From Dehalococcoidia bacterium (GTDB lineage Bacteria; Chloroflexota; Dehalococcoidia; GIF9; AB-539-J10), in NCBI GenBank assembly GCA_030610855.1, contig JAUWQY010000001.1:65628-129627 (forward strand): a stretch of 64,000 nt of DNA. Reading direction: 5' to 3'. Below, in pieces: positions 15,143 to 50,573 of the stretch (position 1 is its first letter; each line of letters begins with the position of its first letter). Below the pieces are notes generated by a model. The model saw nothing but the letters and a program-made list of their open reading frames with translations, did no database searches and was not told where the DNA came from. A program made the position numbers and the translations under genes.

Positions 15143-16288
15143 ATGAAGCAAATGTCGAAAACGAGCGAGCTGATTGCTAAGCCGGAAGTGATGGCAGGTG
15201 AGATCAAGCAATCGAGGGAACTGTTCCGGATCCTGTTCCATCGCTCACCAATCGGCACCTACATTATTCAGAATGGACACTTCCGACTTGTCAATCGCCA
15301 GCTCGCCTATATTCTAGGCTATGAGGAAGATGAACTGATAGGAAGGCCCTCTCTAGGTTTCGTTCTTGCAGAGGATAGGGATGCTGTGCGGGAAAACGCT
15401 GTAAGGATGCTGGAGGGAGGATGCTCTCTAGGGTACGAATTCAGGATTGTTACTAAGCAGGCAAAGATCAAATGGGTGATGGAGACAGTTGCTCCCGTCC
15501 ACTACCAGAGGAAACGAGCGACTCTTGGGAGTCTCATAGATGTGACTGAGCGCAAGCAAGTGGAGGAGAGGTTGAAGCAAATCACAGGCGAGATGCAGCG
15601 TTCTAACACTGAGCTGGAGCAATTCGCTTACGTGATTTCGCACGATCTGCAAGAGCCGCTGCGTATGGTCTCGAGCTATACCCAACTACTGGCTAAGCGC
15701 TACGGCAATAAGCTGGACTCCGATGCAGATGAGTTTATCGCTTATGCCGTAGATGGTGCCAAGAGGATGCAAACATTGCTTCACGGTCTTCTAGACTATT
15801 CCCGTGTCGGCACTCGTGGGAAGCCTTTTAGCCTGGTCAACTGTGAACATATCGTTGAACAAGCGATGGCCAACCTTAAGATAGCGATCGAAGAAAGTGG
15901 GGCATCGGTGAGCTATGATGTCCTGCCTACGGTAATGGGTGATGAGGGGCAGCTGGTGCAGTTGTTTCAGAACCTCATCGGCAATGCCATTAAGTTTCGT
16001 CGGGAGGAACCACTGCAAGTCCACATTTGGGCTGGAAGAAGGAACAGTGTAGTGACCTTCTCCGTTAACGATAATGGCATCGGCATTAATCCTCAACATA
16101 GCCAGAGTATCTTCGAGATTTTCAGACGTTTGCATACCAGGGAGGAGTATCCGGGAACGGGTATGGGCCTGGCTATCTGCAAGAAGATTGTAGAGCGACA
16201 TGGCGGGCATATCTCGGTGCAATCACAGCCTGGACAAGGCTCAACATTCCACTTCAGTGTCGACATGGCTGGAGGTGAATCTGAATGA
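15143..16288 (+). CDS. PAS sensor histidine kinase
   Basis: 381 aa; PAS domain, YVISHDLQEPLRMVSSYTQLL H-box, GTGMGLAICKKIVERHGG. Confidence 0.92.
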   Translation: MKQMSKTSELIAKPEVMAGEIKQSRELFRILFHRSPIGTYIIQNGHFRLVNRQLAYILGYEEDELIGRPSLGFVLAEDRDAVRENAVRMLEGGCSLGYEFRIVTKQAKIKWVMETVAPVHYQRKRATLGSLIDVTERKQVEERLKQITGEMQRSNTELEQFAYVISHDLQEPLRMVSSYTQLLAKRYGNKLDSDADEFIAYAVDGAKRMQTLLHGLLDYSRVGTRGKPFSLVNCEHIVEQAMANLKIAIEESGASVSYDVLPTVMGDEGQLVQLFQNLIGNAIKFRREEPLQVHIWAGRRNSVVTFSVNDNGIGINPQHSQSIFEIFRRLHTREEYPGTGMGLAICKKIVERHGGHISVQSQPGQGSTFHFSVDMAGGESE

Positions 16289-16737
16289 ACAGTCAGATAG
16301 CCGAACGACCTATGGAGATTCTCCTCGTTGACGATAACCCGGGAGACGTGCGGCTTACAGCGGAAGCTCTCAGAGATGGCGAAGTAGAGAACAGACTACA
16401 TACTGCGAAGGATGGTATGGAGGCAATGGCTTTCCTGCGCAGAAAAGGAAGGTATATCGATGCACCCCGCCCCGACCTCATTCTGCTTGACCTGAACATG
16501 CCTCGAATGAACGGCCGGCAGGTATTAGCGGAAATCAAAGAAGACTCGACGCTAAAACACATCCCCGTAGTCATACTTACGGGCTCACGAGAAATGGACG
16601 ACATTGTCAAGACGTACGACCTGCATGCGAATTGCTATGTCACCAAGCCAATTGACTTCGAACAGTTCATCATGATGATGAAGTCCATCACCGACTTTTG
16701 GTTGAGCATCGTGAAACTTCCATCGGAGGAAAACTAG
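16285..16737 (+). CDS. Rcp1-type response regulator
   Basis: 150 aa; ILLVDDNPGDVRLTAEALRDG...LLDLNMPRMNGRQVLAEIK; overlaps upstream kinase by 4 bp. Confidence 0.9.
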   Translation: MNSQIAERPMEILLVDDNPGDVRLTAEALRDGEVENRLHTAKDGMEAMAFLRRKGRYIDAPRPDLILLDLNMPRMNGRQVLAEIKEDSTLKHIPVVILTGSREMDDIVKTYDLHANCYVTKPIDFEQFIMMMKSITDFWLSIVKLPSEEN

Positions 16738-41118: not shown

Positions 41119-41730
41119 TTACCTTGCTAGCAGGGTCCTTAAGAGCGCCTGCTTCTTGCGCGGATCCGGTATGTCCCGCCACACGCATTCAACACCGGAT
41201 GTGCCCGCTGTTGTCAGGAAAATGTCGCCACAATTGTACACACGCTGCCTCAGGCTAATCTTCATCCTGATGTCCTGTACCTTGCTCAGGCGGTTCTCAA
41301 ATAAGTCCTTTGAAAGTATCCCCCTGAGCACAAGTATTCGACTTGTGGTGAGCGCGTAGACAACAGAGCGCCACTTCAGATAGCCTATGAGAGCTATGAT
41401 CAGTCCGGCAACAATGAGTATTGCACCAAAGATTGGCCATTTAGGAACGATCAACACGATGAGGCCACCTGCAAGAAAGAGGACAGCCGTTGCGATGTGG
41501 TTGAAAAACGTCCCCATTTTGCTTGGGTGCGTTTCATAGACAACCCTTTCATGCTTTTCCATCATGTCCAGAGGAATCATCCTGGGCATTTCGTAAGTAG
41601 GAACGTCTTCACGGTCTTCCTGCAAACGCGCATGAGTGCTCTCCGGCACGTCCTCTTCTATACGCGTTCCGCAATACTTGCAGTATTGACCGGATTCATC
41701 GATTTCCTTGCCGCATTTTGCACAATACAT
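41119..41730 (-). CDS. zinc-ribbon plus bacterial PH-domain membrane protein
   Basis: 203 aa; MYCAKCGKEIDESGQYCKYCGTRI, two TM helices, YALTTSRILVLRGILSKDLFENRLSKVQDI. Confidence 0.82.
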   Translation of the reverse strand: MYCAKCGKEIDESGQYCKYCGTRIEEDVPESTHARLQEDREDVPTYEMPRMIPLDMMEKHERVVYETHPSKMGTFFNHIATAVLFLAGGLIVLIVPKWPIFGAILIVAGLIIALIGYLKWRSVVYALTTSRILVLRGILSKDLFENRLSKVQDIRMKISLRQRVYNCGDIFLTTAGTSGVECVWRDIPDPRKKQALLRTLLAR

Positions 41731-41974
41731 GTCAGTACTCCTATGCGCTGGAAAGGCTAGAATGCCATATCTCCATAAGTCTATTCGTGTCCGCTATTTG
41801 TGTCAAGATAGATCATCTTCAGGAGATTTCACTGTGCGCAATCCGTAGAAGTTGGACCAGGCAGTCACGACACAGTGGAAGAGGTCTCTCCCGACAGATT
41901 GTGTACTGAGTCCAGGGCTGCGGCGCAAGCGACTGGCGCGACCGCGGGACGCGCTCAGTCTGGCTGACTCCCAT

Positions 41975-42703
41975 TCATGTCCTTTGTCCCCTTCTGAGCG
42001 ATTGAACCTGCCCGGGAGTGAGTTCACGGATTTCACCCTCCGGCAGTGCGCGCAGTCTGAGGCTACCGAATCTTATCCTTTTCAACTCCAGGACCCTGTA
42101 TCCCAGAGCGGCGAACATCCGGCGTACCTGACGTTTCTTGCCTTCATGAATGGTAATCGAGTAATTGAAGGGCGGATATTTCAGGGCCTTGACTCTGGCC
42201 GGGGACGTCTTGCCGTCGTCCAGATCGATTCCCTTTTCCAACTGCATTTTCTCTTCCGGCTTCAGGTCCTGTTCTATTCGGACCAGGTATTCCTTTTGCT
42301 GTTCAAAACGAGGATGCGTCAACCGAAAAGTCAGGTCGCCGTCGTTAGTCAGGAGAATCAGGCCTGTGGAATCTTTATCCAGACGACCCACCGGGTAGAG
42401 GCGGATGTGACGGTATTTCGCGGGGAGGATATCGATCACCGTTTTCGCTCCTCTTGTATCACCGGTGCTCGAGACAATACCCTTAGGCTTATTCAGCATG
42501 AGATAAAGAAGGGGCTCGGCTGTGGCTGAGACGAGTTTCCCATCGATCGTTATGACGTCCTTAACAGGGTCAACCGGCTCGTTGAAGCTCTGGATTATCT
42601 CGCCATTGACGGCTATGCCACCCCTCTTGATAACGGCAGCTACCTGTCTTCGCGAACCGACACCGGAGCCGGTGAGCAACTTGATTATTGGTTGTGATGC
42701 CAT
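41975..42703 (-). CDS. rluB: RsuA/RluB-family rRNA pseudouridine synthase
   Basis: 242 aa; S4 domain, LMLNKPKGIVSSTGD, YPVGRLDKDSTGLILLTNDGDL. Confidence 0.93.
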   Translation of the reverse strand: MASQPIIKLLTGSGVGSRRQVAAVIKRGGIAVNGEIIQSFNEPVDPVKDVITIDGKLVSATAEPLLYLMLNKPKGIVSSTGDTRGAKTVIDILPAKYRHIRLYPVGRLDKDSTGLILLTNDGDLTFRLTHPRFEQQKEYLVRIEQDLKPEEKMQLEKGIDLDDGKTSPARVKALKYPPFNYSITIHEGKKRQVRRMFAALGYRVLELKRIRFGSLRLRALPEGEIRELTPGQVQSLRRGQRT

Positions 42704-42802
42704 TTGCGTGTCGTCAACGAAGGTCGGACAATCGGAGTCATCTGATGCACTAAAAGAGAACCCTTCTCGCAGACCATGCGGTGAAGTCCGGGTCTACAGT
42801 AA

Positions 42803-42833
42803 GAAGGCGCGTGATTCATCACCAGACGCCTTC
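42803..42833. terminator. hairpin, possible original dnaN terminator
   Basis: gaaggcg-cg-tgattcatca-ccaga-cgccttc; lies ~31 nt 3' (minus strand) of the FVQW-TAA-TAA remnant at repeat A. Confidence 0.45.
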
Positions 42834-42870
42834 GCTTTTACATCTCTTCAGCTTCGAGATTTATTACCAT

Positions 42871-42909
42871 TGGACAAACATCGGGATGTTTGCCCTTTCA
42901 CGCGTATGT
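42871..42909 (-). repeat. att-like repeat A
   Basis: tggacaaacatcgggatgtttgccctttcacgcgtatgt; minus strand encodes NIPMFVQW*. Confidence 0.8.
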
Positions 42910-42920
42910 AACAGGATAGA

Positions 42921-43208
42921 TCATTCCGCGAGGTACGTATCACGAAGAGTGGCTAACAACGTTCTTCCATGTGCGACATGCCGGTCATTTCGCAAAACAG
43001 CGACCTCAAACCCTGGATAGCACTGCTTGAATCTCTGCTCTTTCCAATGATTAACGGACCAGCGGTTTCGAGCCATCTTAGCATAAGGATAAGATGTAAT
43101 ACCTTCGAGATTGTCGCGAACATTCCTGCCAGTTTGTCTGTCTGTGAACTGTACTCTAAACCCTTCACGTCGGAATATTTGTGTTTCGACTCTCTTTAAA
43201 GTTGGCAT
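42921..43208 (-). CDS. small protein of unknown function
   Basis: 95 aa MPTLKRVETQIFRREGFRVQFTDRQTGRNVRDNLEGITSYPYAKMARNRWSVNHWKEQRFKQCYPGFEVAVLRNDRHVAHGRTLLATLRDTYLAE; strong RBS (gaaggaggttat-ATG); flanked by repeats A and B. Confidence 0.65.
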   Translation of the reverse strand: MPTLKRVETQIFRREGFRVQFTDRQTGRNVRDNLEGITSYPYAKMARNRWSVNHWKEQRFKQCYPGFEVAVLRNDRHVAHGRTLLATLRDTYLAE

Positions 43209-43258
43209 ATAACCTCCTTCGAGCATTTGTATACTCAAGCACAGATTTGCTTATCAAC

Positions 43259-43297
43259 TGGACAAACGTCGGCATGTCTGCCCTTCCACGCGTATAT
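43259..43297 (-). repeat. att-like repeat B
   Basis: tggacaaacgtcggcatgtctgcccttccacgcgtatat; 34/39 identical to A by hand alignment. Confidence 0.8.
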
Positions 43298-43313
43298 CGC
43301 GTCGAAGCGAATG

Positions 43314-44186
43314 TTACAAAGCATTGTTTAGGTCAATGTCCAAACCTGAGGCTTTCAATTCTTTGGCTAACGAGAGCCGCCAAGCTCCAGATGCATCAAG
43401 AGGTATGTATACGACTCCTTGAAAATCCGAGGGCAACTCGACACCCTCGGTATAAAGAGCGCATACTTTTTTTCTGCCGAGCAGTCCAATAAAAAAGCCT
43501 AACTCGAATACAACGTTCTGACGAGCTCGTGGCTTCAGTGTGGAAGTATCTGTGATTGGGGACGCTTTGTCATCAGGGGTAAGCAAGACGACCGAGAAAG
43601 CCACGGGTGACGTGCGTTCAAGCTTCTCGATTATCGTATCACCGAGGTTTGGTTGCTCATGTAAGATTATTGGGTTGAGGTTCAACTTCGTCAAGTAGCG
43701 TGCAACAGTCTCTTTGACACCATGGTCTGCCCCATGCACTAAAAAGACTTCTTTTATGGTCGGTGCGGCGTGCTCGGCTGGCGTAGGTGAGATAGCTCTT
43801 GGAAGTCCGGACGGTTCAGGGTAAAGAGGTAGACGTTCTTTTATTGACTCAAGCCTTGTTATGTGAGTAAGAATCTCCCCGGAAAGTGCTTCGATTTTCT
43901 CGCGTAAACTGGAGGCAGCGAAGGAAACGGCCCAAAAACTGTACTCTTGGGACAGCTCGTCAGAGTCAAACATTCTTCGCAGAAGCTCTATATTAAATTC
44001 GTGCCATAGCTTGTGGTTGTAGTCAACTCTTGCGTAATCTTGACTGGTGCTCATAGTCTTGGGAAGAAGGTCTTTTCCTGAGTCAATTCTGGATGCTAAT
44101 TGCTCAGCAGCTTTTGACCTAGATATTGTTAAATTAGGTGGCTGTGATTGTGTTTGCTGATTTGATATGGTGCGTTTTGGTGTCAT
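43314..44186 (-). CDS. TIR-like nucleotide-binding effector (PF10137/CAP12-type C-terminal domain)
   Basis: 290 aa; EVFLVHGADHGVKETVARYLTKLNLNPIILHEQPNLGDTIIEKLER...FSVVLLTPDD...RARQNVVFELGFFIGLLGRKKVCALY...GVVYIPLDASGAWRLSLAKELKASGLDID. Confidence 0.88.
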   Translation of the reverse strand: MTPKRTISNQQTQSQPPNLTISRSKAAEQLASRIDSGKDLLPKTMSTSQDYARVDYNHKLWHEFNIELLRRMFDSDELSQEYSFWAVSFAASSLREKIEALSGEILTHITRLESIKERLPLYPEPSGLPRAISPTPAEHAAPTIKEVFLVHGADHGVKETVARYLTKLNLNPIILHEQPNLGDTIIEKLERTSPVAFSVVLLTPDDKASPITDTSTLKPRARQNVVFELGFFIGLLGRKKVCALYTEGVELPSDFQGVVYIPLDASGAWRLSLAKELKASGLDIDLNNAL

Positions 44187-44351
44187 GGAATTATTCTATG
44201 TAGTCAATACAAGGAAGTCAAACAGATGGTAAGTTAATCGGAATTATTATCCAGCGATGCGTGTAAATATTCAATACCTTTTGCTTTTTCGATTTGATAT
44301 AAGTCGCTGACCGTACCTTAATAATGTTTGACATGAAGTCATGAGATGATG

Positions 44352-45188
44352 TTATTTTGCTTTAGACCAGTTCTTGTTGATAAGCTTGTAGTCACTAACT
44401 GGTAAAAAGGAGACTTTGCCATTATTGTTGAAGAATCTTGAAAACGCACCAATAACGTGGTGCTCAATCCTTCTTAATGAATGATGGTAATCTGGGTGGA
44501 TAATTTCATATCTGAAAATATCCCATCCAGGGATTTCCGGACGTCCGATTCTAACCCGATCGCCTAATGTCTCTGCACTTCCTATGTATATTTCCTTTTT
44601 TGTTTGATCAATCAGATAATATATTACATACCTTGCGTCCGCATGTTTCAATAGATCTGTAGACTTATACCATGGGGTTGACTTAGTAATAAGATAATCA
44701 CGGTTCGTTTTACTCAGCCACCCAAAAACATTCTCTTCAACTAAGCGTTTGAAAATGCTGTCATAGGGAGTGTTTATTTGGATGAACGTCTCCAGGTCAA
44801 TTTCGGTAGAATTAATGGGTTTGAATACTAGTACTTCTTGATTGCCTGCAAGTAAGTCAGTGATATAATATTTCCCTTCGATTTTGAATTGATAACTGCG
44901 GCTTTCGATTGCCAAATAACTCTGAATGAATTCCTTTTTAAGCTCAAGTAGAAGATCAGAGTTGCCATCCCATCGTAATTGGTAAGGTTGAGTAGCGTTC
45001 TTTATAGCAACATGGGTTAATTTGGCTTTGAAAGTCATATGTTTCTTAGGCCAATGGAGTTTTACATCACGAGATTCTCCTGATTTTAAAGGTTGCCCTT
45101 GAGTAAAATCGTTAACATATTCCTTTGGTATGGTTGTACCATAACGGAAAATGGATTTATCAATCTTTTTATAGAAGTTCATACGCAT
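44352..45188 (-). CDS. GIY-YIG nuclease-like protein with possible N-terminal DNA-recognition domain
   Basis: 278 aa; C-terminal RYVIYYLIDQTKKEIYIGSAETLGDRV...RRIEHHVIGAF; N-terminus FYKKIDKSIFRYGTTIPKEY...LKSGESRDVKLHW...YQLRWDGNSDLLLELKKEF suggests a B3/EcoRII-N-like reader (inference). Confidence 0.65.
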   Translation of the reverse strand: MRMNFYKKIDKSIFRYGTTIPKEYVNDFTQGQPLKSGESRDVKLHWPKKHMTFKAKLTHVAIKNATQPYQLRWDGNSDLLLELKKEFIQSYLAIESRSYQFKIEGKYYITDLLAGNQEVLVFKPINSTEIDLETFIQINTPYDSIFKRLVEENVFGWLSKTNRDYLITKSTPWYKSTDLLKHADARYVIYYLIDQTKKEIYIGSAETLGDRVRIGRPEIPGWDIFRYEIIHPDYHHSLRRIEHHVIGAFSRFFNNNGKVSFLPVSDYKLINKNWSKAK

Positions 45189-45223
45189 TAACCACTACTA
45201 AGTATTCGATATTCCTTTAATCT

Positions 45224-45261
45224 CGAACGAAGATCGGGATGTTTGCCTTTCATGGGTATAT
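45224..45261 (-). repeat. att-like repeat C (more diverged)
   Basis: cgaacgaagatcgggatgtttgcctttcatgggtatat; shares gatcgggatgtttgcc and tttcaYgSgtat with A. Confidence 0.65.
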
Positions 45262-45321
45262 TTGGTTATTACCTTTCGATTTTACTGTTAGGTCGGTATA
45301 AACGTGTCTGATACCGGAAAA

Positions 45322-45984
45322 TCAAGCGGGGAACCTGGCGACGAAGTCTCGTATTCCTAGTAGTGCTACCTTAACTTGTTCATCAGTGTACTCAGTATAT
45401 TTACCGTGAGCCGCCTTGTTACGGAGGTCAAGCCAAGCAGTAATACTCTTTTGGTCTAGACGATTGTACACATTCGAATTGGTGAGGTCTGCATTCATCG
45501 CATCTGCCTTTTTGAAACGGTCATTTGTTTTGATGTTGATTGAGTTTTTCAGGCAAAGCTTCCTTAGATGTTCCTCTAAAACACCACCGCTAATAACAGC
45601 AGGGGGGTCTTTATAGCCTTCTTCCAATAGATACTCGCCCATGTCAAGGAAATCGGCGAATAGGTCAGCGCGTATCAATTCCTCAATCTGATGTAGGTAT
45701 CCAGATTCATATGCAGTTCTTAATGCTTCAACGATACCGACTAAAGTCGGAATGGCATAACGGCTATTAAGACCCTGCGTTTTTATGACAGCCTGCAAAC
45801 TTGTATAGTAGTATGTTCCAGTGGGGGCAAGACGTTCTATAGCTGCAACTAAAGATGTATATACCTCGGTTTGTTTAGCTGCTGAGCTACTAGGCAAAGT
45901 TTCAGAATCAGGGCCTCTGATTTCTTTGTATCTATCTAGTACTTGTTCAAGTTGCTGAATAGGTGATGGTTGGGTTACAGTCAT
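45322..45984 (-). CDS. HEPN-like C-terminal domain protein, unknown function
   Basis: 220 aa; C-terminal ITAWLDLRNKAAHGKYTEYTDEQVKVALLGIRDFVARF with Rx4H (RNKAAH) motif. Confidence 0.6.
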   Translation of the reverse strand: MTVTQPSPIQQLEQVLDRYKEIRGPDSETLPSSSAAKQTEVYTSLVAAIERLAPTGTYYYTSLQAVIKTQGLNSRYAIPTLVGIVEALRTAYESGYLHQIEELIRADLFADFLDMGEYLLEEGYKDPPAVISGGVLEEHLRKLCLKNSINIKTNDRFKKADAMNADLTNSNVYNRLDQKSITAWLDLRNKAAHGKYTEYTDEQVKVALLGIRDFVARFPA

Positions 45985-46368
45985 CTTAGTTAACTCCCGC
46001 TAGTTTGGCATTATTAACAGCTGAACTTCACATAATTGATTATAACATAGCTTCAGGACAACAGCTTGCCTGGGTGCTAGAATAGCTCAAGGCATGGAGA
46101 AGAACGGGGAATTAACAGAAGCTCTGAAAGCCATCAAGAATGTAGCGGAAAACAATTCATGGTTTAGAGACACTCCTCATTATTGGGCAGAAGCGTCGTT
46201 GCCTTTGGCTTATGCGGTGGCGTGTGTTGAAGTGGTTTCCGAAATGTCAGACAAAGCCGGCTACTCACTTGGTTGATGCGGCTATCGCTATGGGCGCAAA
46301 AATTGTGTCGGTTGATATTGGGAAAACTCCGGTATCCCGTAAAAAGGGTATTGACAAAGAATGAAGAT

Positions 46369-46390
46369 AGTAGTACTATATAGTAATACT
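46369..46390. promoter_or_regulatory. candidate operator / promoter palindrome
   Basis: agtagtactatatagtaatact containing perfect 12-bp palindrome tactatatagta, in AT-rich region upstream of 46446 ORF. Confidence 0.4.
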
Positions 46391-46445
46391 ATTAAGTATA
46401 TACGAGTGTAGTAATATTATTCGCAATAAAAGGGGGTGAATTTTT

Positions 46446-47051
46446 ATGGATAACACGCAATTAGCTAAGTGGAAGAGAGAGATGGAAATGCAATTGGCTG
46501 AAGTTGAGAAACAACTGACAGGGATAGAAAAGGAGCGAGCCGCACTTAAGGCGAAACTGGGAGCAGTTACAACACTACTTTCTCCAGCGGAAGAAATAAC
46601 TGCAATTGAAAATTATGAGGCAAGAGACCTTATAGGTGCGTTCATAGCAGATTTGAAAGTGAATGGCTGGTCTGTTGGGAAGCATGGAGGGAAAATTAGG
46701 AGCTATGACGCGAACCGAGGCGGTCAAAGTGTTGAACTGTGGATAATATTCAGTAAACTTCACGAAGTAAGCGAACGATATTGGTTTGGTGTGAATCCAG
46801 ACCATCTTGAAAATAGGAATGGCGGGGTTATCTTGCTACTCGGTACTCACAAGAAGTACATTTGCTTGCCGTTTACTAAACTACAGGAGATACTGGAAGG
46901 TTCAAAGAACACGAGAGCTGGCCACAAATTATTCCATGTAAGGCAGAAAAGCGGGCAAGTCGAGCTCCAGCCTGCAGGAATCGGCGGGAAATGGATAAAT
47001 GTTACCGCGTACTTAAATGGGGAAGGGCTAAAGAGAATTGGTATTAACTAA
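46446..47051 (+). CDS. hypothetical protein with N-terminal coiled coil
   Basis: 201 aa, aaaggGGGTGaatttttATG RBS; MDNTQLAKWKREMEMQLAEVEKQLTGIEKERAALKAKLG. Confidence 0.65.
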   Translation: MDNTQLAKWKREMEMQLAEVEKQLTGIEKERAALKAKLGAVTTLLSPAEEITAIENYEARDLIGAFIADLKVNGWSVGKHGGKIRSYDANRGGQSVELWIIFSKLHEVSERYWFGVNPDHLENRNGGVILLLGTHKKYICLPFTKLQEILEGSKNTRAGHKLFHVRQKSGQVELQPAGIGGKWINVTAYLNGEGLKRIGIN

Positions 47052-47075
47052 GACCAAGAAGGAAGTAAATAGAAA

Positions 47076-47156
47076 ATGATGAAAGTAGCTGTCTACTGCC
47101 GTGTGAGTACTGAAGGTCAAGAACGGGACGGAATAAGCCAAAATGGAAGGGGGTGA
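47076..47156 (+). pseudogene. truncated N-terminus of a serine recombinase
   Basis: MMKVAVYCRVSTEGQERDGISQNGRG*, closely matching MKAAIYCRVSTEGQEQDGTSLQ of the full gene at 47625. Confidence 0.85.
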
Positions 47157-47160
47157 AGAG

Positions 47161-47610
47161 ATGAAACACTTGAAATTAGCGATAGAGCTCGTTCCAAAGA
47201 CATCCTGGTATAACAATCTCAGGAACAAGATGAGCAGTGATAATTGGAATTTCATCCGTGAACGTACATATGACTCATATGGAAATAAGTGTGGAATCTG
47301 TGATGCTAAGAATACTAGGCTTGAATGTCATGAAATATGGGAATATGACGATGAAAACCACATTCAGACTTTGAAAGGTTTCATTGCTCTCTGTCAGATG
47401 TGCCATCATGTTAAGCACATAGGATTAGCAGGTATATTAGCTGACGAAGGAAAATTAGATTATGACGCGGTAATAGAACATTTCATACGGGTAAACGGCT
47501 GTGATAAGAAGGATTTCCTAAACCATCGTGAGAAAGCCTATGAAATATGGGAGAAAAGGTCTAAGTATAATTGGACAATCGATTTAGGACAATTTCGAAA
47601 TCTTATTTAA
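47161..47610 (+). CDS. HNH endonuclease-like protein
   Basis: MKHLKLAIELVPKTSWYNNLR...CGICDAKNTRLECHEIWEYDDENHIQTLKGFIALCQMCHHVKHIGLA. Confidence 0.7.
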   Translation: MKHLKLAIELVPKTSWYNNLRNKMSSDNWNFIRERTYDSYGNKCGICDAKNTRLECHEIWEYDDENHIQTLKGFIALCQMCHHVKHIGLAGILADEGKLDYDAVIEHFIRVNGCDKKDFLNHREKAYEIWEKRSKYNWTIDLGQFRNLI

Positions 47611-47624
47611 GGTGAGAAGTAACT

Positions 47625-49157
47625 ATGAAAGCCGCTATCTATTGTCGTGTGTCAACTGAAGGTCAAGAACAAGACGGGACAAGCCTGCAAACTCAGCTTG
47701 AAGCCTGTCGGAAGTATTGCGAAACTCGACGGTATGAAGTCGGGTATGAGCTTAGCGAAGCTTGGTCGGGACTGTCACTCGAACGTCCTAAGCTGAATGA
47801 GCTTAGGGATATGGTGCGCTCGGATCAGATAGACACGGTAGTTGTATACAGCCTTGACCGCTTCTCCCGTGACCCTGTGCATGGAGTCATTCTCATGCAG
47901 GAACTTGAAAAGCACGGAGTTACTTTGGAAGCGGCTACTGAAACCGTAGATAATTCGGAAGTCGGCAAGCTAGTGTTCTACATCAAGGGCTATGCGGCTA
48001 AGTTGGATGCTGAACGGCGGCGGGATGCTACTGGACGTGGTAAGCAAGCTATGTTAAAGAGTGGCAAGCTGCCACAAGGGACTGGCATAGGTATCTATGG
48101 CTATCAGTGGATTAAGGAATACAAGAAGCGCATACCATTGGAGCGAGAAGCTAGGGTAGTCAAGAGAATGTTTGAAATGGTTGTTAATGGCAATGGCTGT
48201 TTTAAGATAGCTCGGACTCTGAATGAGGAGGGTGTACCAACAAAGTCCGGTAAGAAATGGGAAGCTCGTACGGTAAGCAGGATAGTTCGTAACCCTGCGT
48301 ATATGGGCATAACATATTTCGGTCAAACTTCGGGCAAGAATCGCGAAAAGAAGCCTCAAGAATCCTGGTACGTTCTACCTGATGTAACTCCTGCCGTTAT
48401 CAGCAAAGAACTGTTTGAACGGGCACAGGCTGCTCTGGCTAAGTCAAAGGAACTGCATCCAGGCAAGGCAAAACATGAATACCCGCTAACTGGTTTTGCG
48501 GTCTGCGGGTATTGTGGAAGCCCGTTAGTGGGAAGTTGCCTGAGGGGCGACTATCGATACTATCATTGTCGTGGTACACACCCGACTGCGTCGCGACAAA
48601 AGATATGCGATGCTCGGTACATCCGGGCGGAATGGCTTGAAGGTGTGGTATGGGAAAAGGTGAAAAGTGTCTTGTGTTACCCTGAACTGCTCATGGGTGA
48701 AATAAGCAAGCAAAATGAAGTTGAACAAGCCTGGGTTTCAGATGGCACGATTGACCAGGAAATAAAGGCTCTCAATCGGAAGCTCAAACAATATGCTGGT
48801 CAGGAACGGCGGCTTATGCAAGCGTTCAAGCTCGGTTTTACGCCTGATGTGGTCATGGACGAAATGAACCAAACCAAGAAGGAAAAAGAATCTGACCAGG
48901 TGCGGCTGGCTTCTTTGATTCAGACTAAAGAGAACATTGCCAAGATGGGCGATTATGAAGGGAAGCTGAAGGAGTTATGCGCTAGAATAGTTCCTGATTT
49001 GGACAACTGCACAAACCAGGATAAAAAGGATGCCTACACCTACATGGACTTGAGCGTTACGGCTACGCCGGAAGGGGTGGACATCAAAGGATACCTTAAA
49101 CCAGACGTGATTCAGGCTGATTCGTACGTACTCACCACTGGACAAACATGGGCATGA
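47625..49157 (+). CDS. large serine recombinase
   Basis: 510 aa; AAIYCRVSTEGQEQDGTSLQTQ, VVYSLDRFSRDP, Recombinase domain, zinc ribbon CGYCGSPLVGSCLRGDYRYYHCRG, C-terminal coiled coil. Confidence 0.96.
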   Translation: MKAAIYCRVSTEGQEQDGTSLQTQLEACRKYCETRRYEVGYELSEAWSGLSLERPKLNELRDMVRSDQIDTVVVYSLDRFSRDPVHGVILMQELEKHGVTLEAATETVDNSEVGKLVFYIKGYAAKLDAERRRDATGRGKQAMLKSGKLPQGTGIGIYGYQWIKEYKKRIPLEREARVVKRMFEMVVNGNGCFKIARTLNEEGVPTKSGKKWEARTVSRIVRNPAYMGITYFGQTSGKNREKKPQESWYVLPDVTPAVISKELFERAQAALAKSKELHPGKAKHEYPLTGFAVCGYCGSPLVGSCLRGDYRYYHCRGTHPTASRQKICDARYIRAEWLEGVVWEKVKSVLCYPELLMGEISKQNEVEQAWVSDGTIDQEIKALNRKLKQYAGQERRLMQAFKLGFTPDVVMDEMNQTKKEKESDQVRLASLIQTKENIAKMGDYEGKLKELCARIVPDLDNCTNQDKKDAYTYMDLSVTATPEGVDIKGYLKPDVIQADSYVLTTGQTWA

Positions 49158-50265
49158 TTACGTGAACATAGTTGTCCACGCCTATGGGGCGGATGGTGCC
49201 GGGGCTCGAGGGGGTAGTGACTTCCAGGGCGACCTGAGACTGGTGAAGGACAGATAAGACCTCGGAAAGGTATTTTACATTGAAGGCGATCTTCGCCTCT
49301 TCTCCGTCGACAAGAGCGTCGATTTCACCGACATTGTCGCCGATTTCCTCGGCCTGGGCAGAAACGGTTACCTTGCCGGGGGTTAGTTCAGCACCCGGCG
49401 TGATGACCAGGCGCACTATGCCGCTGGCGTCGCGAGCAAATACGGAGGAGATCTTGGCAACGCGCATAAACTCACTGATGTCCACTACAGCCCGCGTAGT
49501 GTAGCTTTGAGGAATAACCTGAGAGTAGTTGGGGAAGGAACCTTGAAGAAGCTGCGAGACTATCTCGGCATCCTTGAGGCGGAACAGCACCTGGCTCTTC
49601 TGTTCGTTTACGGTGATTTCCACGGGTTCCTCCTGCTCGCCGAGAAGTCGATTCACCTCATTGAGGACCCTGGCCGGGATGATTACCGAAGTCTCTGCAA
49701 TTACCGGCGAGCCCAGAGTCATCTTATGGACAGCCAGCCTGAAGCCATCGGCAGCCACCAGGTTGAGCTGGTCGCCAGCAAATTCAGTGTTAATGCCCGT
49801 CAGTACTGGGCGCGATTCCTCTGTGGCAGCAGCAAAGGCGACGTGTGCAATCCCTTCCCTGAGGCTGGCTGCTTCAATGGTAGTAGTCACACCGTCGCTT
49901 ATCTGAGGGATAGGCGGGAAGTCCGCGGCATCGATGCCGTTGATATGCGCCTGAAAACGGCCGCACTTAAGCTCCAGGATGCGACCGGTAGCGGGAAGGT
50001 TGATCTCAACTAAGTCATTGGGCAAGGAGTTAACAAAGTCGATGAGCAAGCGAGCAGGCACGGTTATGCTGCCTTCCTTTTTGACTTTTGCACCAACCCA
50101 GTAAGTGGTAGCCATTTCCAGGTTGGTGGCTGCCAGTTTGAGACGCGACTGCTCAGCGGACAGAAGGATATTCTGAGTGATAGGCAAGGTGGACCTTGCG
50201 GCTACGGCTCTCCCTACAGCGTTCAGTCCTCTATTCAGGTTCTCTTGAAGACAAGACAATTTCAT
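49132..50265 (-). CDS. dnaN: DNA polymerase III beta subunit (sliding clamp)
   Basis: MKLSCLQENLNRGLNAVGRAVAARSTLPITQNILLSAEQSRLKLAATNLEM...RPIGVDNYVHVIMPMFVQW. Confidence 0.96.
   Translation of the reverse strand: MKLSCLQENLNRGLNAVGRAVAARSTLPITQNILLSAEQSRLKLAATNLEMATTYWVGAKVKKEGSITVPARLLIDFVNSLPNDLVEINLPATGRILELKCGRFQAHINGIDAADFPPIPQISDGVTTTIEAASLREGIAHVAFAAATEESRPVLTGINTEFAGDQLNLVAADGFRLAVHKMTLGSPVIAETSVIIPARVLNEVNRLLGEQEEPVEITVNEQKSQVLFRLKDAEIVSQLLQGSFPNYSQVIPQSYTTRAVVDISEFMRVAKISSVFARDASGIVRLVITPGAELTPGKVTVSAQAEEIGDNVGEIDALVDGEEAKIAFNVKYLSEVLSVLHQSQVALEVTTPSSPGTIRPIGVDNYVHVIMPMFVQW
49139..49156 (-). repeat. att-like core D within the dnaN 3' end
   Basis: tggacaaacatgggcatg, 16/18 identical to the first 18 nt of both A and B; inside dnaN (MPMFVQW) and recombinase 3' end. 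Confidence 0.6.
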
Positions 50266-50573
50266 GAAACACCTCCCGCCATGTATGTAGTGAAAGTATA
50301 CTATCAAGAACTGTAATAATCAATGACTCGGCTTGACATAATACTAGCTTGACCAAAGGCATGCTAACAGCGACTATCATGGCCAGGTCGGATTGACCCT
50401 CTGACTATGCGGCCCGGTCACGGCTCCGGACGGTGGTATTGCGCCTGATGGGCTCTGAGGGTTAGAATCGCGGCGTCTTTGGTCCAGCTTTGCCCTGTGG
50501 TACTTGCGACGGGCCTGCAAAGGCTGCCCTGTCAGGACGGCGCTCGCGCAGATGCCCGGCCAACTGGCTGAGT

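Follow-up and report, generated by a model that had tools for sequence, protein, structure and literature searches.

At rlmH, SCC elements use a serine recombinase, restore the 3' end of this conserved protein-coding gene and form stacked elements with gene-end repeats. The hallmarks of large serine recombinase (LSR) attachment sites are a 2-bp non-palindromic core, an inverted-repeat attP and a less symmetric attB. The sliding clamp, the product of dnaN, is essential and binds its partners through a surface to which its C-terminus contributes. The ssrA islands of Dehalococcoides (DsiB/DsiA; McMurdie et al. 2011) lie in tandem behind a single-copy essential gene, have direct repeats of the gene 3' end at their boundaries and an LSR beside the gene, and about half of them are without an integration module; the paper describing these islands does not mention dnaN (PMC3146451). 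In the LSR atlas of Durrant et al. 2022, many LSRs are target-specific, diverged LSRs can share one target, target genes are treated as disrupted on integration, and the main text is without dnaN (PMC10083194). A 2026 comparative study of Dehalogenimonas does not mention dnaN either (PMC13390414), and the literature searched, which leaves most subscription papers outside, held nothing relevant on dnaN as an integration site, an absence that is weak evidence.

Of known systems, the islands that we find behind dnaN come closest to the Dehalococcoides ssrA islands. Like those islands, they are tandem, have gene-end repeats and an adjacent LSR, are in many cases without an integration module and belong, by inference, to the same class (PMC3146451). 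Their target sets them apart: ssrA islands use a tmRNA gene with a 20-bp ssrA repeat, whereas the boundaries here are dnaN tails, that is, a coding end with synonymous last five codons and stop. The youngest layer of the island analysed here encodes none of the domains of the six-gene module that ssrA islands have beside attL (DsiB, DsiA, RecF-like, ParB-like and Mom-like proteins among them), and its only trace of a second serine recombinase gene is a 61-nt fragment. In their mode of action the dnaN islands would work like SCC at rlmH without being SCC members, as the target of SCC/SCCmec and of the Enterococcus cassette chromosome (PMC6222049) is rlmH and the target here is dnaN; SCC recombinases are Ccr, whereas the dnaN element has a single LSR. 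This recombinase shares the LSR domains of the atlas members, but the dnaN end is restored, unlike the disrupted targets of the atlas view (PMC10083194). An ordered, growing array of short gene cassettes with the youngest beside the platform also recalls integrons, but those use a tyrosine integrase, IntI, with folded attC sites, whereas a serine recombinase adjoins the site here and the platform is an essential gene. The sliding-clamp gene joins the short list of protein-coding genes at which serine-recombinase islands exchange the end and restore it.

In the window (the whole 64,000-nucleotide stretch of DNA that was analysed), the integration target is dnaN (49132..50307, minus strand), identified by Pfam DNA_pol3_beta 1/2/3 and by junction logic. 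From dnaN outward, the island is laid out as stratum 1 (with the LSR), copy C, stratum 2 (with a TIR gene), copy B, stratum 3, repeat A, a terminator and rluB. The live dnaN terminus (minus strand, 49152-49132) reads ...AATCATG/CC/CATGTTTGTCCAGTGG TGA, with the attL core CC at 49151..49152 (minus strand) directly preceded by ATG on the dnaN side, as in 39/39 live tails. Repeat A (42864..42908, minus strand) reads ...CAAACATC/CC/GATGTTTGTCCAATGG TAA from 42908 to 42864, and consists of an attP-left half, ACGCGTGAAAGGGCAAACATC, the core CC at 42883-42884 and an intact former dnaN tail, GATGTTTGTCCAATGGTAA. PMFVQW-stop is encoded by both. The original prediction that the dnaN terminus is duplicated at the far island boundary was borne out, since CCGATGTTTGTCCAATGGTAA at 42864-42884 (minus strand, within repeat A) and CCCATGTTTGTCCAGTGGTGA at 49132-49152 (minus strand, the dnaN terminus) are the sole matches in the window at ≤3 mismatches, with 0 in 100 shuffles and a chance expectation of 0.00. 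The synonymous differences it named, caa/cag and taa/tga, are present, but its list was incomplete and CCG/CCC is a third; the tandem TAA TAA and the hairpin that it placed behind repeat A are both there. This hairpin (42803..42833, minus strand; -17.4 kcal/mol, z -2.3, equally stable in 3/200 shuffles) is, from folding and comparison with relatives, a terminator of the dnaN type, which travels together with the tail. As the live end and repeat A mismatch at both -1 (G/C) and +1 (C/G) around the CC, the exchange is confined to CC, and the last codons of the window dnaN, MFVQW-stop, are, on this comparison of junctions, evidently element-derived.

We consider it very likely that a clade of LSRs integrates circular DNA at the CC of the dnaN end, that the tail carried by the element replaces the old one and that insertions stack outward. 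Integration would occur at one site, the CC in the proline codon of ...M-P-M-F-V-Q-W-stop at the dnaN 3' end, with an element attP that is an inverted repeat and whose right arm encodes M-F-V-Q-W-stop. The crossover would give dnaN the element's own synonymous tail (attL), while the previous tail, still joined to its stop codon and terminator, would end up at the distal boundary, following the left arm of the element (attR). As dnaN would remain functional and attB would be re-formed beside it, each new insertion would land directly at dnaN and push the older ones outward; the displaced tails, no longer translated, would decay, and repeat A and copies B and C would be such ends. The LSR presumably performs this reaction, integration may well proceed via a circular intermediate, and the elements are probably active; no free circle of the element was seen. 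In a different account, the LSR would be part of a prophage or some other element merely lying beside dnaN, and the repeat would reflect either coincidental similarity or a short target-site duplication. The variation of cargo between genomes would fit such an account, but we give it practically no credence given the zero chance matches, the five-codon coding identity with synonymous differences, the class-wide recurrence and the presence of dnaN tails at other LSR-bearing relatives; moreover, a target-site duplication would leave two identical copies of host sequence, whereas the new and old tails are not identical here.

Within the sub-clade of the window itself, we found no member free of the island, and the comparison of dnaN 3' ends therefore covered other members of the genus, sister genera and the class, in genomes that are mostly fragmented and may contain some MAG errors (G269 and G279 are single contigs). 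Three before/after comparisons in relatives upheld the earlier proposal that the inserted element supplies an equivalent dnaN 3' end. Between G269 and G279, two complete genomes that share a genus, the flanks overlap by 24 bp in the former and lie 12,717 bp apart in the latter, where the insert abuts dnaN, carries its own LSR (29% identical to the window LSR) and brings a new, synonymous dnaN tail, GTGCAATGGTGAGGG, in place of GTTCAATGGTGACTA, with the old tail intact at the far side. Comparisons of empty and filled sites within the window's own genus agree with this. In G007 and G015, dnaN lies immediately before a convergent histidine-kinase/response-regulator pair, and in G012, G019, G017, G010 and G009 a displaced tail adjoins that pair or bears its post-stop sequence (TAACTTGTTTGG; TAACTTGTTTGC in G010 and TAACTCATTTGG in G009); the flanks overlap by 25-26 bp at the tail in G015/G007 and lie 6.6 kb apart in G012. 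G009 is without one insertion: the tail that is live at its dnaN, TAGCGAATAACATTAAAATAACTATTATCC, has in G012 been displaced by a more recent insertion of 5.1 kb; the methyltransferase cassettes of these two genomes are 95.7% identical over 1468 bp and the dnaN stretch 92.3%. Taken as comparisons of sequence, these results show the insertion point, the replacement of the tail, the order of accretion, the association with the LSR and the decay of displaced tails. Repeat A plus its downstream DNA also matched the live dnaN end of G012 (86.7% over 60 bp) and a displaced dnaN end with its terminator in G005 (74% over 179 bp).

Most members of the genus carry between 1 and 5 instances of the dnaN-tail pattern per genome. 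We scored 39 live and 51 displaced tails by profile detection, which favours intact displaced tails, so that their decay is underestimated in the following counts: PMFVQW-stop is encoded by 37/39 live tails (the other two are PMFVQWS and PMFVEW-stop) and by 26/51 displaced tails. In live and displaced tails alike, the change in sequence falls at a CC core, which is kept in 48 of the 51 displaced tails, and in displaced tails the triplet directly before the core is mostly ATC. Left arms that recur before displaced tails are ACGCATGGAAGGGCAAACATC, CATAGTGCAAAAGAATCAAACATC, CGTACGTACAAGAAATCAGACATC and TCATCACTGGACAAACACG. It could be proposed that the dnaN end was copied across unrelated inserted DNA by homologous recombination or by segmental duplication, as the displaced copies have 20-60 bp in common with dnaN and some include the terminator. 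We judge this very improbable, since the copies end abruptly upstream at the same CC, a constant boundary that refutes duplication, and since the copies are preceded by recurring attP-left sequences and not by dnaN coding DNA; the before/after pairs are also exact, with an LSR at the junction. A separate idea, that the left-arm families represent unrelated systems, was dropped because all have the CC core and the tail, and because some of the families can be accounted for by two or more LSR subfamilies. In viral contigs, neither dnaN tails nor relatives of the LSR were found.

Assembly contigs end at the CC core of dnaN or a few bases past it at L002 (G004), L018 (G008) and L004/L108 (G011). 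Such breaks are as expected if a population or genome holds several tails. The islands explain recurrent assembly breaks and strain variation behind dnaN.

The island of the window had been read as a single element, which overlooked the decayed copies B and C and the LSR. Given these two copies and an LSR whose last codons run antisense to the dnaN tail, the island comprises three or more insertions stacked on one another. Stratum 1 (45236..49151), the youngest, measures ~3.9 kb core to core and contains the LSR gene (510 aa; 47625..49157, plus strand), a 155-aa ORF with a Cys/His (HNH-like) pattern read by eye and 0 Pfam matches (47143..47610, plus strand), a 201-aa ORF (46446..47051, plus strand) and a 220-aa ORF whose weak RiboL-PSP-HEPN similarity scores under the Pfam cut-off (45322..45984, minus strand). 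The 201-aa ORF lies within a region, 46133-47124, that recurs at 89% identity behind dnaN of G019 (L092 14853-15832). Upstream of the HNH-like ORF and the intact LSR is a 61-nt duplicate of the LSR 5' end (47079..47139, plus strand; repeat family D2), a remnant; LSR 5' remnants are also seen near dnaN in G019 (L092 ~15787-15833 and 16507-16648) and G003 (L093 215-357). Copy C (45225..45260, minus strand; core 45237-45236), the attR of stratum 1, joins a good left half, TACCCATGAAAGGCAAACATC/CC/, to a decayed dnaN tail, GATCTTCGTTCGAGATTAA, that reads PIFVRD-stop (decayed match 45225-45252). Stratum 2 (43271..45237; ~2.0 kb) is without a recombinase and carries a 278-aa ORF and a CAP12/Pycsar-type TIR effector gene (43314..44186, minus strand; Pfam PF10137 6e-36, PADLOC PDC-S35 2.8e-69), a candidate for anti-phage defence. 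Copy B (43257..43297, minus strand; core 43272-43271) is a displaced, decayed dnaN tail (PTFVQL), and beyond it stratum 3 (42883..43272; ~390 bp) holds a 105-aa ORF; relatives of the stretch as such adjoin dnaN tails in G014 (L102 10320-10675) and G011 (L108 1940-2228).

Repeat A had been taken for the displaced original end of dnaN. It did once end dnaN and was then displaced, but it need not be the ancestral end, because the rluB-like pseudouridine synthase gene beyond it (41975..42703, minus strand) sits between two copies of the dnaN terminator/intergenic region (41840-41956 and 42713-42835), and we dropped repeat A as the single original dnaN end on these grounds. The rluB gene is probably an older stratum and repeat A the end displaced next. 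In G005, one decayed dnaN tail lies immediately before rluB, and a displaced tail with a homologous terminator lies immediately before a 203-aa gene; in the window this gene (41119..41730, minus strand) marks the native far side, as in G031 and G071, genomes of sister genera, it is the gene directly behind dnaN. The position of rluB between terminator copies looks as though a housekeeping-type gene were carried as cargo.

The attB is the dnaN stretch ending ...ATGCCGATGTTTGTCCAATGGTAA, and its arms are asymmetric (3/19 to 9/22). The attP of G114, rebuilt from the element's own ends, is AACGTACGCATGGAAGGGCAAACATC/CC/GATGTTTGTCCAGTGGTGAGTACGTT and forms an inverted repeat (19/26, p 3.6e-7), as does the attP of the G279 insert around CC (17/26, p 1.6e-5). 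The symmetry of the window element's attP is weak (9/21) because its left arm, copy C, has decayed. These sites therefore show the CC core, inverted-repeat attP and less symmetric attB of LSR-type sites, and the window recombinase has the Resolvase N-terminal (PF00239), Recombinase (PF07508) and zinc-ribbon (PF13408 Zn_ribbon_recom) domains of an LSR. The LSRs form a family that shares a conserved target, has a known core and comes with many natural variants of attP.

Relatives of the window LSR in the PDB are SPbeta YokA and the TP901-1 integrase, and class-wide it has close relatives in G114 (86% identity), G098 (76%), G132 (75%) and G094 (66%) as well as diverged ones. The gene and dnaN overlap at their 3' ends, so that the last LSR codons lie antisense to the dnaN tail; this overlap is conserved, and the TGA stop of the LSR comes from dnaN. 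LSR C-termini antisense to dnaN tails include TTGQTSA, VTIEQTSA and TTERTSA, with the stop read from the dnaN side. As dnaN sequence supplies the stop codon, the LSR C-terminus should differ between the integrated and the circular form (for the window LSR, 510 aa integrated and a computed 533 aa in the circle), and this change may have a functional role. Of 30 LSR loci in the class (the window's included), 20 have an LSR that ends against dnaN itself or against a displaced tail, and a tree of 56 proteins unites these 20 dnaN-associated LSRs in a single branch with 28 members (support 95/99). On re-inspection of the other eight members of that branch, L237 and L235 adjoin dnaN, and L238 and L242 are accompanied by a displaced tail. 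L235 and L242 are from a different class of the same phylum, in which the clamp ends MPMHVAR-stop; as the displaced tail there encodes the same MHVAR end as the clamp, the carried tail follows the host. The class spanned by the dnaN-associated LSRs is by inference Dehalococcoidia, as each of its complete genomes (1.4-2.1 Mb) has 18-50 reductive-dehalogenase-domain matches. For these bacteria, among which are organohalide respirers, the islands preserve a history of gene acquisition that can be read layer by layer across the class. In several array-bearing genomes no LSR of this clade was detectable, and G012, for example, has no PF07508 match at all; the source of the insertions in these genomes is accordingly not seen.

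Cargo behind dnaN elsewhere includes histidine kinase/response regulator genes, a methyltransferase, an AAA ATPase, RCC1 and GLUG repeat proteins, aldehyde ferredoxin oxidoreductase, a type III-like restriction helicase domain and HNH, alongside the CAP12/Pycsar-type TIR, weak HEPN and unknown genes of the window. The dnaN end is a general site for accessory genes and not only a defence island. Strata that are without a recombinase may have moved in trans or may have lost their recombinase. As an extension of our preferred explanation, not an alternative to it, a resident or visiting LSR could capture recombinase-free cassettes in trans, with the dnaN end as an attI-like platform. Many strata without a recombinase, some of ~0.6-0.8 kb with one gene, are consistent with such arrays, as are distinct left-arm families that recur across genomes and a 185-aa protein, without a Pfam match, that forms a one-gene cassette in three genomes at 88-92% DNA identity (L091 8840-9397, L114 3689-4246 and L118 7991-8548; ~0.65-0.7 kb tail to tail in L091 and L114). 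Several tails are, however, accompanied by remnants of an LSR, which suggests that some strata simply lost theirs, and the same pattern at ssrA islands was read as cis-mobilizable islands or accretion (PMC3146451), so that we hold capture in trans to be possible but tentative. Somewhat more doubtful is the fuller version, in which one LSR clade, in this class and beyond, would keep the dnaN end as an integron-like platform and capture recombinase-free one-gene cassettes in trans, each with a host-matched clamp C-terminus, while its own dnaN-donated stop would make the integrated and circular C-termini differ.

Two further kinds of dnaN-related sequence were noted. At L105 (G036:C28 81570-81665), a longer copy of the dnaN C-terminus, ~34 codons with IRPVGVDNYDHVVMPMFVQW-stop, lies ~18 kb downstream of dnaN; as its start is not at the CC core, another mechanism is likely. 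Divergent second DnaN paralogues (29-34% identity) are present in G000 (C37:24853-25905; L109), G019 (C29) and G020 (C21), with an unrelated LSR within ~10 kb of the paralogue in G019 C29 and G020 C21, which suggests that these are clamp genes on other mobile elements.
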